Positions 18,846 through 51,590 of a stretch of 64,000 nt of DNA are shown here, piece by piece; position 1 is the first letter of the stretch; every line of letters begins with the position of its first letter. The stretch comes from Arsukibacterium sp. UBA3155 (GTDB lineage Bacteria; Pseudomonadota; Gammaproteobacteria; Enterobacterales; Alteromonadaceae), in contig DEYP01000023.1 of NCBI GenBank assembly GCA_002364615.1, forward strand, positions 82,408-146,407, written 5' to 3'. The notes below the pieces were generated by a model. The model searched no databases. It was not told the origin of the DNA and saw only the letters and a program-made list of their open reading frames with translations. The translations under genes and the position numbers were made by a program.

Positions 18846-19466
18846 ATGAGACCACTTACGCCTCGTCAGGCAGAAATTTTGCAACTTATCAAAGATTATC
18901 AGACCGAGACCGGTATGCCACCAACCCGGGCTGAGATCGCCAGCCAGCTGGGTTTTAAATCAGCCAATGCAGCAGAGGAACATTTAAAAGCACTGGCAAA
19001 GAAGGGCGTGCTGGCAATGATGCCGGGAACCTCGCGCGGCATACGTTTACTGGACGATGATAACGAGCCAGAACAGTTAGGTTTACCTTTAATAGGCAAA
19101 GTGGCCGCTGGCCAACCTATTCTGGCGGCAGAAAATGTGCAAAACCATTATAAAATTGACGCCCATTTATTTAAACCCCGTGCCGATTTTTTGTTAAAAG
19201 TTCAGGGGATGAGTATGCAAGATATCGGCATTATGGATGGCGATTTACTGGCCGTGCATAAAACGGCAGATGCCCAGCCTGGTCAGGTTGTTATTGCCAG
19301 GGTTGATGACGATGTCACCGTTAAGCGGTTTCAGCGTGATGGACATCAGGTACTGTTGCACCCCGAGAATAAAGATTTTGAAGTGATTAAAGTCGATTTA
19401 CGCCAGCAGCAATTTGCCATAGAGGGTTTGGCGGTTGGGGTAATTCGCAACGGCAGTTGGTTATAA
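18846..19466 (+). CDS. lexA: SOS repressor LexA
   Basis: The 206-residue LexA has an N-terminal winged helix ([19 protein letters not shown] through SRGIRLL). The Ala-Gly cleavage site is in [11 protein letters not shown]. The catalytic serine is in the [10 protein letters not shown] segment and the catalytic lysine in DDDVTVKRF. RecA filaments stimulate self-cleavage and derepress SOS genes. The tandem LexA boxes immediately upstream show autoregulation. Confidence 0.97.
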
Positions 19467-45072: not shown

Positions 45073-45280
45073 ACTCCTGCTTGATGTGGTAATGTCCGTT
45101 TTTCGCTCTGTACTGACGTCAATCTGGCAACGTTGGGTTGCTTAGTGGCACAAGCAGACATTGGTATGAACTCGTAACTTGCCGGATTTTTTGTAATAAA
45201 TATGACTCTGGCTGGCTAACAAATTGGTTATGCCATTATTCTTGTGGCAAAACTTACACCATGTGTTCAAGGCATTGATT

Positions 45281-46381
45281 ATGGAATTGCAAACAAGGCT
45301 AGTGTTTATCGATACAAACGCTTTTGAAAAGAAAAACTATCAATTTGGGCAACACTCTCTTGGTCGTCTGCAAGAACTAATTGAAGATAAGAAAATCCAT
45401 TTGCTTATTACTGATGTGACAAAGAAAGAGATTGACGCCCATCTCAAACGCAAATCTGAAGAAGCAGCTTTTCTAATAAAGAAGATTCAAAAAGATGCTA
45501 TGTTCCTAAGAAATACACCCGACCTTGATTGCTATGGCATTTTCACAAAGGTTACAAGTGATGATATTTACGCAGTTATCAGTGAAAAATTTGATGATTT
45601 CGTCGAAAACGGATACGTGGAAACTGTTGATGTAAGTACTGTTAACCCTCAAGTTGTATTCGATGCTTATTTCAACAACCGTCCTCCCTTTGGCAAAGAA
45701 TCAAAAAAGCACGAGTTTCCTGATGCATTCGCGCTGGAAGCTATTAAACAGGTGAGTTTGGCGAGAGGGCATTCTGCCTACATCGTTAGTGATGATGGCG
45801 ATATGAGATCAATCTGTGAGCAAGAAGATAACTTCATTCATATTGAAAACGTCGATGACCTAATTGACTTGATTGTTCGAAGCGACAATGTATACGAAGA
45901 GCCAGCAAAATTCGCTGATGAAGTTTTCGAACAGCTCCTAGATCAGATTAAAGCTGTCGCTCTTCAAGCTCTCCAGGAAGGAGAGTTTAATTATGAAAAA
46001 GCAGATCTTTATGATGAGATTATCAACTCTATAGAAATTAACTATGTGAATGTTGAAAAGAAAAATTTACTAAATGTTGACGCCGAGTGGGCTGAGTACG
46101 AAGTTGAGTTTGAGGTAGTGGTTACAGCAGATTATTTAGTATCAGATTATGACCGCTCACCTTGGGACGCAGAGGAAAAAAAGTACGTATTTGTCTTGAA
46201 TAATGAGGTCACCTTAAAGCACAAAGAAAAATATTTTGCTCATCTTATTCTCGACTACGATGGCGGGCTAAAAGCTAAAGCATACATTGAAGAATTAAAC
46301 TTCCAAGATACGTATTTCGAGTTGACTGATGATGGCTCCGAAGTCATTAGCTTCAAAGAACTAGATATCAACGGTGAGTGA
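45281..46381 (+). CDS. PIN-domain protein (DUF4935-like)
   Basis: The 366-residue protein starts at MELQTRLVFIDTNAF, with AAGG eight bases upstream; in-frame starts at 45224 and 45230 are possible but lack support. PIN residues are D11, ITDVTKKEIDAHLKRK, EFPDAFALEAI and IVSDDGDM, spanning about 8-200. The C-terminal 160 residues are acidic beta-rich (EYEVEFEVVVTADYLVSDYD). No antitoxin is adjacent. The PIN gene converges on the ImmA peptidase gene. Confidence 0.75.
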   Translation: MELQTRLVFIDTNAFEKKNYQFGQHSLGRLQELIEDKKIHLLITDVTKKEIDAHLKRKSEEAAFLIKKIQKDAMFLRNTPDLDCYGIFTKVTSDDIYAVISEKFDDFVENGYVETVDVSTVNPQVVFDAYFNNRPPFGKESKKHEFPDAFALEAIKQVSLARGHSAYIVSDDGDMRSICEQEDNFIHIENVDDLIDLIVRSDNVYEEPAKFADEVFEQLLDQIKAVALQALQEGEFNYEKADLYDEIINSIEINYVNVEKKNLLNVDAEWAEYEVEFEVVVTADYLVSDYDRSPWDAEEKKYVFVLNNEVTLKHKEKYFAHLILDYDGGLKAKAYIEELNFQDTYFELTDDGSEVISFKELDINGE

Positions 46382-46400: not shown

Positions 46401-47204
46401 TTAAATACCCTCCTTGCTATTGATACACTGCCAAATAGGCTCTTCATCTTCCCACCAAACCAAACTTATAAACATGTCGTCATGGTACTGGAAGGCGTGT
46501 TCATGAACTGTTGCATCATCCGCCCAATCTTCTCTGCACCACACGCTGCCATCTACTTCACCAGCGCTAGATTTAATACCATTTAATATCAAATCATGAA
46601 TCTTCGATCCTTCTGGCGCGGTATTGGTAGGAAAGAAGCTTCCAGGCAAAGTACTATTTTTGTGGAACAGATACCTGCTTCCATCTTTACGATAGATAAC
46701 AAAGTGGCCCATGTGATGATCGCTGGTAATAACACGACGCATGGTCATCATGAAGCTTGTGTCGAAGGCTGACTTAACTGAACTCATTAAGTCTAAGTCA
46801 AGGCGACTACCAGCCAAATGATCTTTTAACAAGTAACTAGGCACAAGTAGTTCAGACGCATAGCTATTTGCAATGTTTTCACGATGCTTAGATACACCGC
46901 TAGGATTTTCCATATCACTGTGTGAGCACAAGTTGCCGACTTTCCCACGGTCTTTGAACCAATGGCCGAGCTCATGTCCAACAGAAAATCGTTTTCTCGG
47001 TGTATCGCTGGCTGAATTGACAGTGATAGTCGCTTTGTCTCCAGCGCCAATGATCATTGCCTCGCAACCATTCAGAGGTCTTTCTAATACAATTGCCTGA
47101 TGTTCATATGCTATTGCTTCAATATCTATTTCTTTTGGCTCTGAAATAGCAAATTCGTCTATGTATAACGATTCGACAAAATCCTTAATCGCCTTTATCG
47201 TCAA
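46401..47204 (-). CDS. ImmA/IrrE-family metallo-endopeptidase (CapP-like)
   Basis: The 267-residue protein has the zinc-peptidase motif HELGH (H77, E78, H81) in RKRFSVGHELGHWF and a downstream Glu in NSYASELLVP (E118). ImmA/IrrE peptidases cleave transcription regulators after stress. CapP of some CBASS loci is in this superfamily and cuts the repressor CapH. Start is TTG at 47204, with GGGAG nine bases upstream, inside the preceding gene (20-bp overlap). It is the third gene of an operon divergent from the CBASS operon. A regulatory role in CBASS is inferred. Confidence 0.82.
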   Translation of the reverse strand: MTIKAIKDFVESLYIDEFAISEPKEIDIEAIAYEHQAIVLERPLNGCEAMIIGAGDKATITVNSASDTPRKRFSVGHELGHWFKDRGKVGNLCSHSDMENPSGVSKHRENIANSYASELLVPSYLLKDHLAGSRLDLDLMSSVKSAFDTSFMMTMRRVITSDHHMGHFVIYRKDGSRYLFHKNSTLPGSFFPTNTAPEGSKIHDLILNGIKSSAGEVDGSVWCREDWADDATVHEHAFQYHDDMFISLVWWEDEEPIWQCINSKEGI

Positions 47205-47616
47205 CTTTAATCACTCCCATAGCTATCAAGTTTGCAACGATTTGATTTGCATCTTCATCTTTGAATTCTTTGCCTTCTCGAAATGCCAATGTAAGGTTTT
47301 CAGGCAATTTTTGTTGCATTAAAAGTTCAATAAGAACCTCCTTAGCATCTTTTCCTTTTTTCGCCAAATAGCCCATTACATCGACTGTTTCATGTTTTTT
47401 CTTTTCAGCTTCTAACTTTGCTCTGGCTTCCGTAAGTCTCGCTTTTTTGTTTTGCTGTTTGCACTCTTTCACACGATGCAGCAAACGCGCTTGAGTCGTC
47501 TTAATTTCATCAGAAGTTAGCTTGTATTCAGCCATAAGCTCACTAACGTGAGCGTTGGCAATATGCTCGATCATGATATCGTCGAGTAAATTGTTCATCT
47601 CTTTGTTAGCCATCAT
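47185..47616 (-). CDS. Small charged helical protein between sigma-like and peptidase genes
   Basis: The 143-residue protein is helical and Lys/Glu-rich (ARLTEARAKLEAEKKKHETVD near 62-82), with an acidic C-terminus. No domain is recognised. Two overlapping start codons exist at 47616 and 47613; GGAGG is 4 or 7 bases away. The first overlaps the sigma-like stop as ATGA. Because ImmA peptidases usually cut a partner, this protein or the sigma-like one is a candidate substrate, but that is a guess from context only. Confidence 0.6.
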   Translation of the reverse strand: MMANKEMNNLLDDIMIEHIANAHVSELMAEYKLTSDEIKTTQARLLHRVKECKQQNKKARLTEARAKLEAEKKKHETVDVMGYLAKKGKDAKEVLIELLMQQKLPENLTLAFREGKEFKDEDANQIVANLIAMGVIKVDDKGD

Positions 47617-48155
47617 CCAGCCTCCTTTAGGTACTTTTGTCCATTCCTTACAATACGCCTACGAGTCGTGTCGTAGGCAGTTTCATCACCGGCAAAGACT
47701 GACTTCACGATTTCCGATTTATTCTGGCCTTCTTGTGTAGCGGCCAAAAACCTCATAGCACCATCATCCTGACTAAAGATACTCATCAAAATTCCCCATC
47801 TTGGGTCGGTATCGTCTTCATTATCATCAGTGATATCGGCAATTGTTTCGCTGTAACCATCAATTGATTCTGAGTGTTTGAAAATCTTTTCTTGATTTCG
47901 TTCAGCCATTCCGTTGCAGATACTCCGAATCACATTAGCAATTGTGACTGTAAGAGGGATATCTTTCGGCACATGCCTTGTGTCGTCGAGAATGCGTACT
48001 AATGCTTCGTTGAATACTTCTTCAGCTTCAACTGTCAGTCCTGCTTTTCTTATGAGGCACTTAGAAAATATTGTCATTCTTGTAAGTACCTCATCAGTAT
48101 TTGACTCCAGCGCCTGCAAAATCTCATCGACCGTGTAGTAGTCGTAGTCCTTCAT
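47613..48155 (-). CDS. Sigma-70-like (region 2 type) regulatory protein
   Basis: The 180-residue protein resembles the region-2 part of small sigma-70/ECF-like factors. It has helices TVDEILQALESNTDEVLTRM, EVFNEALVRILDDTRHVP, and DIPLTVTIANVIRSICNGMAERN, the pattern of the polymerase-binding helices. The C-terminal DETAYDTTRRRIVRNGQKYL could be a degenerate region-4 or DNA-binding helix. GGGAG precedes its ATG. It is the first gene of an operon with the 143-residue protein and the ImmA peptidase and starts 229 bp from the CBASS operon on the opposite strand. The sigma call is by pattern only. Confidence 0.6.
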   Translation of the reverse strand: MKDYDYYTVDEILQALESNTDEVLTRMTIFSKCLIRKAGLTVEAEEVFNEALVRILDDTRHVPKDIPLTVTIANVIRSICNGMAERNQEKIFKHSESIDGYSETIADITDDNEDDTDPRWGILMSIFSQDDGAMRFLAATQEGQNKSEIVKSVFAGDETAYDTTRRRIVRNGQKYLKEAG

Positions 48156-48172
48156 TTGCTACTCCCTAAGAC

Positions 48173-48380
48173 GGACAAAAATAAATTTCTGGACATTATC
48201 CAGTTTTAAAGCTGAGTTCTGCCTTATTAGATGTAGGGCAAAACTGCACGTTTGGATTTTACCCATTAATTTGGATAAAAATAATTTTCTGAACAATGTC
48301 CAGTTTCTGACCAGCGTTCCGCCTTAATACATAGGACAGAACTGAAAATTTAGATGTTACCGAATTAATAAGGATAAAAA
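48173..48380. repeat. 100-bp tandem direct repeat with palindromes in CBASS control region
   Basis: Copy 1 is 48173-48272, copy 2 is 48273-48371 and a partial third copy is 48372-48380. Each starts GGAYAAAAATAA. Each contains a 15-bp palindrome at the same offset, CTGGACATTATCCAG at 48189-48203 and CTGAACAATGTCCAG at 48289-48303 (consensus CTGGACANTGTCCAG). A second dyad of GTTCYGCC with GGRCARAAC lies about 27 bp further on. Exact 100-bp spacing suggests a duplicated promoter/operator. The only genes on either side are the sigma-like operon and the CBASS operon. Confidence 0.85.
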
Positions 48381-48383
48381 CAT

Positions 48384-48749
48384 ATGCCAAACGCAAAGAC
48401 GCACATGTTGCTTGGTGGGGGAGTGAGCGTAACTGCCGCTTTACTTGATAAGAATAAGCACCCAGTTAGCCATCATATTGCCATTGTTCCTGTTGTTGGA
48501 GCCGTCATGGGAAAATTGCCAGACATTTTAGAGCCTGCATTTCATTCTAATCACAGACAGTTTCTTCATGGTGTGACCGTACTGACGTTACTTTCCGCTG
48601 GATTGCTGAAAGCTTATTGGTGGTCGCCAGAAGAGCCGTCCGAAAAACTTATCAGGGGGTTAATGTTGATAGGTGGGGTAGCTTACCTAAGTCACTTAAT
48701 ATGTGATGCATCAACACCAAAAGGCCTTCCTTTGCTTGGAAAACTTTGA
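48384..48749 (+). CDS. YdjM-like small membrane protein at the head of the CBASS operon
   Basis: The 121-residue protein resembles the YdjM family of membrane-bound, metal-dependent hydrolases: TH at residues 6-7, PDILEPAFHSNHRQFLHG (His-rich, near 46-63), and LICDASTPKGLPLLG at the end. Hydrophobic segments lie at about 32-45, 64-75 and 91-104. It is short for the family, which is usually about 200 residues. AAGGA precedes the ATG and overlaps the third repeat copy. It ends 12 bp before the CD-NTase start and so is probably part of the same transcript. A role in CBASS is not established. Confidence 0.7.
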   Translation: MPNAKTHMLLGGGVSVTAALLDKNKHPVSHHIAIVPVVGAVMGKLPDILEPAFHSNHRQFLHGVTVLTLLSAGLLKAYWWSPEEPSEKLIRGLMLIGGVAYLSHLICDASTPKGLPLLGKL

Positions 48750-48761
48750 TGGAGGTAGGCC

Positions 48762-50009
48762 ATGACCACGCTATTTACTAATGCCCGTGCTCTAAGCGAG
48801 CACAAAAAATCCATGTTGGTGGAGATGTTGGACTCGGTGTTTGACAATCTCGACCTGAATAAAACACAGAGAGAGCGAATTGAGACAGCCTATAAAGCTG
48901 TTGGTAATTATCTGGCGAGCTGCGACCATCCCCTACTGAAAGATGTTCAGATATACCCTCAGGGATCCATGAGGTTGCGAACGACAAATAAGCCGCTATC
49001 TCAGGAAGAGTTTGACGTAGATCTAATTCTGTTTTTGCCACATGCAAGTTACGCGACACGAGACGAAATTGTTGAAGTGGTTAAGCAACATCTATTGGAT
49101 AAGGATGTATACAAAGACCTAGTGGAAGATCTGCCAAGGGGTCTGCGGATTAACTACAAGGGCGATTACCACTTAGACATTACGCCTGCGAAGGAATATA
49201 ACCTACCGAGCTTGCAAGGCCATCCTTTGTGGATTGTTGATAAGCATACTGGCTTCAAAGAGTCCAACCCGGAAGGGATGGCTCAAGGGTTTGATGAAGC
49301 CTGTTCCATGCTGCCGGTAATACGCAGAAGGCACGTGTTTCTTGAGGCTTTGAATAAATCCGTTACGGAATTACCTGATCAGTCAAAGAAGAAGCCGCTT
49401 AATCGGATTATTCAAATTTTGAAACGCCATCGAGACGTTTGGTCTCAGCAGGACGGAAATCTTCACGCTGATTTCAGACCAATCTCTGTGATAATCACGA
49501 TGTTAGCCAGTTTAGCTTATGTCGAAGTCGTGAAGTCTGGAAAAGAATACGACAACGAGTTTGACTTAATCCTGGACGTTATCGAACTGATGCCTCTACA
49601 TATTGAGAGCAATTTTGATGAGATCCTTATTACAAACCCCACAATGAGACCGGAAAATTACGCTGAAAAATGGAATCGTGTCGAAAGGCTAGAGGGACAA
49701 AAATACCGGAAGGCATTTTATACTTGGCACCAGGCCGCAGTCGATACGTTTGAGCGTCTGGCGGGTGCAAACAACCAAGGTATGGATAACGTTTTCGCGG
49801 CACTGTCCGGTGCATTTGGACAAAGGCCGGTACTTGCGGCCAAAGACCAAATTATCAAAGCTGTTAATGCGAATAGAGACAATGGAAATCTGAGCGTTGC
49901 GCTGGGTACAGGAGCGATAACAGCAGCCATCGCTGGGAAGACACATGCAGCTTCGCGAGTTGTTACTCCAGTCGTGCCGGTTAAAAGGAATCAGTTCTAT
50001 GGGGACTGA
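48762..50009 (+). CDS. CBASS CD-NTase (cGAS/DncV-like nucleotidyltransferase)
   Basis: The 415-residue enzyme makes a cyclic di- or trinucleotide second messenger during phage infection. The nucleotidyltransferase motif is YPQGSMRLRT with G68-S69; catalytic acids are D85 and D87 (FDVDLILFL) and D139 (YHLDITPA). A longer C-terminal OAS1-C-like helical region follows. GGAGG precedes the ATG. The last residues (Ala/Val/Gly-rich to NQFYGD) could be the conjugation tail engaged by the E2-like partner. The nucleotide product cannot be told from sequence. Confidence 0.9.
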   Translation: MTTLFTNARALSEHKKSMLVEMLDSVFDNLDLNKTQRERIETAYKAVGNYLASCDHPLLKDVQIYPQGSMRLRTTNKPLSQEEFDVDLILFLPHASYATRDEIVEVVKQHLLDKDVYKDLVEDLPRGLRINYKGDYHLDITPAKEYNLPSLQGHPLWIVDKHTGFKESNPEGMAQGFDEACSMLPVIRRRHVFLEALNKSVTELPDQSKKKPLNRIIQILKRHRDVWSQQDGNLHADFRPISVIITMLASLAYVEVVKSGKEYDNEFDLILDVIELMPLHIESNFDEILITNPTMRPENYAEKWNRVERLEGQKYRKAFYTWHQAAVDTFERLAGANNQGMDNVFAALSGAFGQRPVLAAKDQIIKAVNANRDNGNLSVALGTGAITAAIAGKTHAASRVVTPVVPVKRNQFYGD

Positions 50010-50490
50010 TCCTTCGTTTTTAAGGCGATTGGAGCAGCCAATAATTGGTATACGCGAACAATACTTGGCTCTGAAGCAGTTTTGCCCCGGAACAGTTGTA
50101 ATTTCCGATAATGACAAAACGGTGCAATGGGAGGGCATGCTTCAGCCATTGTCATTTTCTAGGGAGTACCGAGTAGTTATCCGGTATACCCTCAGCCATC
50201 CTCCCGTATGCGTCGTTATAGATCCTGATTTATCAACCTTGGCTCAAGGCCGAAAAATACCTCATATCTATCGGAATCAGACAGGTATTAGGGGCACTCA
50301 ACTCTGTCTCTACTTACCTGTGGTCAAACAAAAAAACAAAGTCAGCGAATGGCAACCAACCATGTTCTTGGCAAACACGATTCTGCCGTGGGCTTCGATG
50401 TGGTTAGTGTACTTTGAGTTTTGGTTATCCAGCGGTGAATGGGACGGCGGTGGTGTTGAACATGATGTGATTGAAGAGAGCGGAAGATGA
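49999..50490 (+). CDS. Stand-alone E2-like protein of type II-short CBASS
   Basis: The 163-residue protein starts at MGTDPSFLRRLEQP, with AAGGA upstream; the ATG overlaps the CD-NTase gene by 11 bp. It has an E2 ubiquitin-conjugase-like fold pattern: HPPVCVVIDPDL, IPHIYRNQ (88-94), GTQLCLYLP with candidate catalytic Cys103, EWQPTMFLANTILPWASMWL and the terminal EFWLSSGEWDGGGVEH. No E1 or JAB gene is present. E2-only CBASS (type II-short) is established, in which the E2 acts on the CD-NTase C-terminus. Confidence 0.88.
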   Translation: MGTDPSFLRRLEQPIIGIREQYLALKQFCPGTVVISDNDKTVQWEGMLQPLSFSREYRVVIRYTLSHPPVCVVIDPDLSTLAQGRKIPHIYRNQTGIRGTQLCLYLPVVKQKNKVSEWQPTMFLANTILPWASMWLVYFEFWLSSGEWDGGGVEHDVIEESGR

Positions 50491-51590
50491 AAATAGCTAT
50501 CAGTTATTTTATTGAAAAAGCCGCAGATTGGTTGTTTAGGAAGCGTTCACCGGCATTGAAGGTTTTCAGGGCCGGGGTCTACTTGTTACCTCTGACGTTG
50601 GCCGGGAGTTGGGCAGTATCGATTATGTACAAAGATGCAGAGAGAACCTTGTCGTTGGGATATCAATCTTCAAGTACTGCGCAGTTTATTATAGGTATTT
50701 GTTTATTCGTTGAAATCGGGTTGATTGTGTTCGGAGCGGCCTGGGAATACCAGCGCTATCGGGACGAAAAAAAGCGGAACGACAAAAAGAAAAGCATAGT
50801 CATCGAACAGCGAGGCTTGGTTGATACATCGGATTCACCATTGAGTGAGTTTATAAAAAACAAATGCTCATGGCAGGTCGAATCAATTGTTAATGACATC
50901 CGGGAAAAGGTTACTGACAACGTAATCACTAGACCTGATGTGGCGTTAGCCAGAGTTAATAACTTGAAAATGAGTCTGTCTGAGAAGACGGCTCAGTCAG
51001 CTGCGTCTGATATTTCAATCGCCTATGGTGGAGTATTTCCAGTTCCGTTTACGTTTTATACCGGTTACCTGCTGGATGATGAAAGCCAAATCTCTGTTTT
51101 TGACTGGGACAGAGATGTTGGGGACTGGCGAGGACTGGATGGCGTTGACGACGGAGAACAGTTCAGTATTGAACCATCATTGATCAAAAGTAGTTCTGTT
51201 GTACTCGCGATCTCAGTTTCTTATCCCGTTGATAGGCAGGCAATTGCTTCTGTTTTCACTGGCTTGCCGGTTCACTACTTATCACTGCCATTGCTTGACA
51301 GAAACAACCACTGGTCGAAAGAAAAGCAAGATCGGCTGAGTGGGGAGTTTTTGGAGTATTGCAAGAAATTGCTTGGGCAAGGGGTCGAGCACATACATTT
51401 AGTGCTGGCTTCACAAAACAGTGTTGCCTTCAGATTTGGACAGGCCTATGACAAGCGTAATCTGCCCAGTGTTTCAGTTTATCAATACGAACATCACCAA
51501 CCAGTGAGATATCCCTGGTGCTTACTTATTCCCCATAAAGTAGGTGAGATACCGGCAGTCGTTCAAACCGAATTCAAACATGTTGCTTGA
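50487..51590 (+). CDS. cap14: 2TM-SAVED CBASS effector (Cap14-like)
   Basis: The 367-residue effector has two N-terminal membrane helices (about 25-46 and 67-89), then a cytosolic linker and a C-terminal SAVED domain (about 195-360). That domain has the characteristic HLVLASQNSVAFRFGQAYDKR and VYQYEHH near the end. In Cap14 proteins SAVED binds the cyclic nucleotide and the membrane part disrupts the inner membrane. The ATG overlaps the E2 stop by 4 bp, so the whole operon is coupled. Confidence 0.88.
   Translation: MKIAISYFIEKAADWLFRKRSPALKVFRAGVYLLPLTLAGSWAVSIMYKDAERTLSLGYQSSSTAQFIIGICLFVEIGLIVFGAAWEYQRYRDEKKRNDKKKSIVIEQRGLVDTSDSPLSEFIKNKCSWQVESIVNDIREKVTDNVITRPDVALARVNNLKMSLSEKTAQSAASDISIAYGGVFPVPFTFYTGYLLDDESQISVFDWDRDVGDWRGLDGVDDGEQFSIEPSLIKSSSVVLAISVSYPVDRQAIASVFTGLPVHYLSLPLLDRNNHWSKEKQDRLSGEFLEYCKKLLGQGVEHIHLVLASQNSVAFRFGQAYDKRNLPSVSVYQYEHHQPVRYPWCLLIPHKVGEIPAVVQTEFKHVA

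Follow-up and report, generated by a model that had tools for sequence, protein, structure and literature searches.

The closest described relative of the locus analysed here is the CapH+CapP pair, which consists of an HTH repressor and a metallopeptidase (Lau et al. 2022, as presented in PMC13373217 and PMC10904395). The module found in this locus resembles that pair in having a CapP homologue whose gene lies directly behind that of a small partner and adjoins an immune operon, and more weakly in a CapH-like C-terminal arginine motif in the 143-residue partner. It differs from CapH+CapP in that the partner has no recognisable HTH, the third gene encodes an ECF-like sigma factor, and the control proposed for it is positive, through dedicated promoters, and not derepression. 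PprI/IrrE-DdrO is similar in that an M78-type peptidase (ssDNA-activated in PprI) acts on a regulator with an essential arginine in its cleavage region, although DdrO is an HTH repressor whereas the protein cut in our module would be an anti-sigma factor. ECF sigma/anti-sigma pairs such as SigH of M. tuberculosis and RpoE-NepR share with the module the sigma2-linker-sigma4 architecture, the partner gene right behind and a bipartite promoter-like element before their own operon; unlike in these pairs, the proposed anti-sigma factor matches no fold in the PDB, its cleavage would fall to an ImmA/IrrE-type protease, and many of the targets are immune operons.

The CapK+CapS system, as described in the available portion of PMC13373217, is a further parallel, since its regulator lies beside CBASS, Bub (ubiquitin-like) and YegP-type operons and its target spectrum overlaps with that of our module, but it comprises a kinase and a STAS repressor, and the term 'sigma' there denotes anti-sigma-like domains and not a sigma factor. 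According to the same source, the DNA-damage regulators of immune operons CapW/BrxR, CapH+CapP and CapK+CapS all act via repressors. A WYL-type activator, SiwR, has been reported in mycobacteria (PMC10693628). A literature search that reached a minority of subscription papers and no bioRxiv preprints listed no sigma-containing version and no three-gene module of this kind. As it lacks one defining feature of that pair, the HTH partner, the module appears to be a variant of a CapH+CapP-type switch and not a plain member. From the sequences, the structural models and the analogies above, we consider it probable that this operon is a sigma/anti-sigma form of the CapH+CapP DNA-damage switch, in which a freed putative sigma factor would fire both CBASS and its own operon.

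The window, by which we mean the whole stretch of 64,000 nucleotides from Arsukibacterium sp. UBA3155, contains the following features.

46401..47204, minus strand: CapP-type ImmA/IrrE metallopeptidase, 267 aa, TTG start (Pfam, PADLOC, PDB, conservation)
47185..47616, minus strand: all-helical protein of 143 aa, proposed CapP-cleavable anti-sigma factor (ORF, weak PADLOC capH score, model, R113)
47613..48155, minus strand: ECF-sigma-like protein, 180 aa, sigma2-like at residues ~9-96, linker ~97-117, sigma4-like ~118-179 (ORF, AlphaFold model, family profile, VIA-align)
48156..48383, no strand: shared control region, 228 bp, between the sigma operon and CBASS
48167..48195, minus strand: proposed sigma-operon promoter, -35 TGTCC (48195-48191), N17, -10 CGTCTTA (48173-48167) (sequence)
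48197..48226, plus strand: degenerate CBASS-facing element P1, TATCC (48197-48201), N18, TGCCTTA (48220-48226) (sequence reading)
48297..48326, plus strand: proposed CBASS promoter P2, -35 TGTCC (48297-48301), N18, -10 CGCCTTA (48320-48326) (sequence)
48384..48749, plus strand: YdjM-like membrane protein, gene 1 of the CBASS operon (Pfam PF04307, E 4.2e-11)
48762..50009, plus strand: CD-NTase (oligonucleotide cyclase) (PADLOC Cyclase, E 1.3e-101)
49996..50490, plus strand: E2-like CBASS protein (PADLOC E2, E 3.7e-48)
50487..51590, plus strand: SAVED-2TM effector (Pfam Saf_2TM, E 9e-49; SAVED, E 3.9e-42)

The three minus-strand ORFs overlap (by 4 nt between the 143-residue and sigma-like genes) and lie where an earlier, sequence-only reading of this DNA had placed them. 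Pfam and PADLOC identified the adjoining divergent operon as CBASS. The divergent arrangement around one control region given in that reading is confirmed, and the length of 229 bp stated there is corrected to 228 bp. The YdjM-like gene is also the nearest divergent gene in three other loci (L004, L037 and L038). CBASS sits in a larger stretch (38000-62000) where Pfam also identifies a PIN_12 protein (45224-46381) and inspection by eye suggests a type I restriction system and a helicase. Outside this stretch, at 18846-19466, lies a gene that by eye looks lexA-like. No tRNA was found across the window.

The peptidase matched Pfam Peptidase_M78 (E 1.5e-8), PADLOC capP over residues 8-254 (E 1.3e-54) and CapP in the PDB (7t5t; E 2.4e-5), and the HExxH motif, C93 and E109 of CapP were identical in 81/81 aligned sequences; in CapP, the cysteine is an inhibitory switch. 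By homology it is a relative of CapP, in agreement with the type assigned to it beforehand.

Assignment of the 180-residue protein rests on a family profile and a structural model, because its sequence alone gave nothing significant in Pfam, NCBIfam, PADLOC, PHROGs or the PDB. An NCBIfam STM2766 match (E 0.035) was rejected as noise. The profile, built from 72 family members, matched SigH in the PDB with an E value of 2.7e-7 across regions 2 and 4, and Pfam Sigma70_r2 was recognised in 15/72 members at E up to 0.01. The AlphaFold model (pLDDT 90.1) has sigma2- and sigma4-like domains. When this model was searched with VIA-align, the first 20 rows were all sigma factors or sigma-like domains, as judged by their titles, and the best Foldseek match (E 0.21, probability 0.66) was not significant by itself. 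At the family level, a sigma2-linker-sigma4 architecture of ~180-200 aa that is homologous to ECF sigma factors is present. Judged by the homology of its family and by its modelled fold, the protein is an ECF-type sigma factor of divergent sequence with a predicted role in directing RNA polymerase, which bears out its earlier description as sigma-like; absence of a sigma-like fold had been named as the observation that would overturn that description, and the model contains both domains. The gene is single-copy in its own genome, and no counterpart was found among phage records.

To follow the module beyond the window, a species-genome collection was scanned with the CapP alignment, and the best 80 of 283 confirmed relatives (586 candidates) were used, which represent close relatives and not all CapPs. 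Within these best 80 of 283, both companion genes lie upstream of CapP on the same strand, and since 75/80 loci carry the sigma-like gene (two as fragments, L045 and L066) and 74/80 the middle gene, the three-gene arrangement is evidently not due to chance. Among the five loci without a sigma-like match, two (L063, L096) begin at a contig end and one (L082) has a weak fragment, and the set of 80 includes the near-duplicates L103/L106/L006, L100/L114 and L031/L041. Structure alignments comprised the window plus 71 of the 75 loci for the sigma-like protein (leaving out L045, L066, L106 and L114) and plus 70 of the 74 for the middle protein (leaving out L095, L096, L106 and L114). By record title, the best 80 of 283 belong to Alpha-, Beta- and Gammaproteobacteria, Geobacter-type bacteria and Acidobacteria, with a small remainder from elsewhere. 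A contrast set of 20 loci was fetched with the capH model, of which seven (L131-L137) have an HTH CapH beside CapP, and neither the sigma-like nor the middle gene was detected in any of the 20 at E up to 1.

In genome draws the sigma-like gene was uncommon, occurring in 3/295 genomes of the order with its own genome included. A Pseudoalteromonas plasmid carries a copy of the 180-residue gene that is 77% identical, together with the same CBASS, and a distant copy (28%) faces CBASS on a plasmid of Cereibacter sphaeroides. A contig of a viral collection (L117) holds a complete three-gene module, from which the module may travel on phage or prophage DNA. The promoter arms of the locus labelled 'Bacillus sp. 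2B10' (L100) and of L114, a Sphingomonas locus, are identical, so that L100 is possibly contamination or a mislabelled record.

Control-region DNA provided the strongest new evidence, and its elements are candidate promoters. A nested inverted arrangement was common to the module control regions: a GGACA..TGTCC pair within ~50 bp occurred in 48/81 module regions in comparison to 12/857 clean controls, these being regions upstream of other genes in the same loci. Extension of both arms was possible in 47/48 of these regions and gave TGTCC(G)-N16-18-(C/G)CGC(A/C)TA, with one element directed toward each operon. When one -35 mismatch was allowed, a matrix scan found paired sites in 35/81 module regions at threshold 5 and 43/81 at threshold 4 versus 0/857 clean controls at either threshold, the matrix having been trained on these same module loci. 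Looser control sets, which possibly still hold module regions, gave pairs in 14/849 and matrix sites in 6/878 (threshold 5). Two 'terminator-like' matches were the short palindromes themselves, and an RNA hairpin was ruled out because inspection by eye showed no apparent complementarity in the DNA that separates the inner from the outer arms.

Specific parts of the two elements of a locus mirrored each other. In a mirror test of 46 of the 47 loci (L114 omitted), the -10 parts shared 6.91/9 identical positions against 5.05 (SD 0.17) in shuffled pairings, the spacer length was equal in 42/46 loci against 23, and the bases after TGTCC agreed at 2.28/3 against 1.38, each value being reached in 0/5000 shuffles, whereas the stretch between the elements mirrored much less (3.17/10 against 2.59; 19/5000). 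Co-variation with the sigma-like protein was calculated for 45 loci (L086 and L114 omitted) and then for 43 after two redundant rows were dropped, with CapP similarity partialled out. The -10 part tracked sigma domain 2 (0.130; reached by 59/2000 permutations) but not domain 4 (0.049; 513/2000), while the -35 flank tracked domain 4 (0.191; 1/2000) and not domain 2 (0.035; 503/2000), a double dissociation that was reached by 25/2000 permutations. The middle protein also co-varied with the -35 flank (0.135; 13/2000). These effects are modest and run in the direction that a sigma factor predicts.

In the window, a bipartite -35/-10-like element precedes the sigma-like gene's own operon, and a 73-nt unit occurs twice in 48160-48332, its copies 100 bp apart and 73% identical, which suggests that a promoter unit was duplicated and that one of its copies is degenerate. 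The inner arm reads TATCC, hence the window is among the 33/81 loci that miss an exact GGACA/TGTCC pair. A pattern built from the window's two sites had three matches in the 3.9-Mb genome, namely those two, found by construction, and one inside a katG-like ORF that was taken as chance given its position and the single genome match of a backward control pattern. No more than 11 nt separate the end of the sigma-operon -10 from the start codon, which would leave a very short leader and put the likely ribosome site directly against the -10. The shared control region looks like the switch, in line with the sequence-only reading.

The spacing of these -35/-10-like elements fits ECF promoters, and the gap between the two arms varies from 0 to 49 bp. 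A dimeric repressor should need a fixed gap and promoters should not, which favours two divergent promoters and led us to rule out a palindromic operator bound by a single dimer. Alternatively, the sigma-like protein might have lost its polymerase role and, with the 143-residue protein as co-repressor, block another promoter from the bipartite elements, so that CapP cleavage would derepress CBASS. The known regulators CapH, CapW and CapS are repressors (PMC13373217), the window's 180-residue protein is degenerate when compared with sigma models, and operators could also yield mirrored elements. This alternative would use the same parts as a sigma/anti-sigma switch and is disfavoured solely by element geometry and co-variation: besides the spacing and the variable centre gap, there is the separate co-variation of the -10 with sigma2 and of the -35 part with sigma4, and the one sigma-70-like site that another promoter could offer is weak and not above shuffles (1 versus a mean of 0.7). 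We regard it as unlikely.

The divergent side was surveyed in 83 loci and carried a CD-NTase in 15, E1/JAB-type genes in 30 and ubiquitin/E2-type genes in 13, with a union of 43; of the remaining loci, 21 had small genes alone, one a SAVED-like-cluster gene alone, and 18 nothing assigned by blast. Pfam scanning covered 142 of 145 divergent proteins (three distal L006 genes omitted) from the 62/81 loci where the operon rule gave one, and returned ThiF (25), Multi_ubiq (13), Prok-JAB (13), SMODS (12), Prok-E2_E (10) and SAVED (7). Guanylate-cyclase domains were also found at the related loci L052 and L057, as was a Beta protein at L048, these three loci being counted among the 18 without a blast assignment. 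The small-gene-only loci carry DUF2188, DUF3892, YegP-type DUF1508 and two families whose scanned representatives match no Pfam entry.

Small genes of the DUF2188, DUF3892 and YegP (DUF1508) types recur at L049, L058, L072, L074, L094, L109 and L002, and may be unrecognised immune or stress effectors; DUF2188-like genes were also seen by eye near canonical CapH (L134, L137). One unnamed family of ~90-108 aa is divergent at L005, L056, L070, L071, L089 and L115, and another, Cys-rich and of ~83 aa, at L003/L032, L042 and L054, with one scanned representative of each giving no Pfam match.

On gene content the module is widespread and not special to this CBASS. The sequence-only reading had held that a wide occurrence of the three genes with no defence system beside them would count against it, and this is partly the case: 43/83 loci face a CBASS cyclase or E1/JAB/ubiquitin-type genes, while blast assigned no such neighbours at the small-gene (21), SAVED-like (1) and unassigned (18) loci. 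The module could be a general stress or toxin-antitoxin-like unit that is merely often found beside defence operons, as the 18 unassigned loci and the 21 with DUF2188, DUF3892, YegP-type or unnamed small genes alone would permit. Exact pairs were equally common without recognised immune genes (23/38) as with them (24/43), so the elements themselves do not argue for immunity. Against such a unit stand the 43 immune-facing loci and the mirrored elements that point into the divergent operon, and we judge it quite improbable.

In the sigma/anti-sigma switch that we favour, the partner of the peptidase would be the 143-residue protein. Its model (pLDDT 86.8) is all-helical with a long helix at 35-76. 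Neither sequence nor fold searches of the PDB gave it a significant match, a known anti-sigma fold included, which does not amount to proof of a new fold. An N-terminal XRE HTH as in CapH is not recognisable, since the model arranges its helices differently and HTH families gave no match beyond a weak capH score, and the earlier statement that no HTH repressor is paired with this peptidase therefore holds. That PADLOC capH score (E 1.3e-4) is weak evidence, because the capH model, mostly via its HTH part, matches 96/143 genomes and all 14/14 control genomes; among middle-protein family members it matches 45/71 at E up to 0.01.

Arg113 is invariant in 75/75 aligned middle proteins, with A111 conserved in 71/75 and T109 in 57/75. 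When profiles were compared with six canonical HTH CapH proteins, the C-terminus alone aligned, and this weak alignment (hhalign probability 3.3%, E 0.013) placed Arg113 over Arg83, which is invariant in CapH. PprI needs Arg118 of DdrO, within the cleavage-site loop E116-L117-R118-G119, for ssDNA-stimulated cleavage (PMC10904395). By analogy, we take Arg113 as the mark of the region in the 143-residue protein that CapP would cleave. The usual place of an anti-sigma gene is directly behind its sigma gene. A 4-nt overlap between sigma-like and middle genes was present in 46/71 loci with the starts as chosen and possible in 58/71, some sigma-like start codons having probably been set too far upstream by our home-made gene caller. 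Given this gene position and the CapH/DdrO-like C-terminal arginine motif, the likely CapP target is the 143-residue protein and not the sigma factor itself. The converse, that CapP cuts the sigma-like protein and so switches it off or on with the 143-residue protein as adaptor, would draw on the three overlapping genes and on a flexible linker that could be cut (pLDDT below 50 at residues 107-113), but is very improbable, as this linker is almost without conserved positions in the family alignment and the conserved arginine motif belongs to the 143-residue protein.

The sigma/anti-sigma switch would then operate as follows. In quiet cells the 143-residue protein would bind the ECF-like sigma factor and keep it off RNA polymerase, so that CBASS would hardly be expressed. 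When phage attack or DNA damage produces single-stranded DNA, this signal, suggested by the relatives of CapP, would activate the peptidase, which, again as in its relatives, would cut the 143-residue protein close to its conserved Thr-x-Ala-x-Arg113 motif. Once released, the sigma factor would recognise the divergent TGTCC-N17/18-CGYCTTA promoters and transcribe CBASS along with its own operon, forming a positive loop that would reset once newly made anti-sigma factor outlasts CapP activity. The parts of this scheme that can be read directly from the DNA and its predicted products are the content, order and conservation of the genes, the homology and modelled fold of the sigma-like protein, and the mirrored elements, which co-vary with its domains.

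Extended to the family, and held somewhat less firmly, the more general proposal is that this is a widespread form of immune-operon control, in which a DNA-damage-sensing ImmA/IrrE-type protease would destroy an anti-sigma factor and free a dedicated ECF sigma factor, which would fire mirrored promoters that serve its own operon on one side and a CBASS, ubiquitin-type or other defence operon on the other; we think this fairly likely. The mirrored signature TGTCC-N16-18-SCGCMTA facing both ways could serve as a search pattern for further target operons, among them those of the divergent genes left unassigned in this survey. If the proposal is true, a sigma switch would provide positive control with a built-in amplifying loop, and would represent a new way of holding cell-killing immunity off and then turning it on fast.
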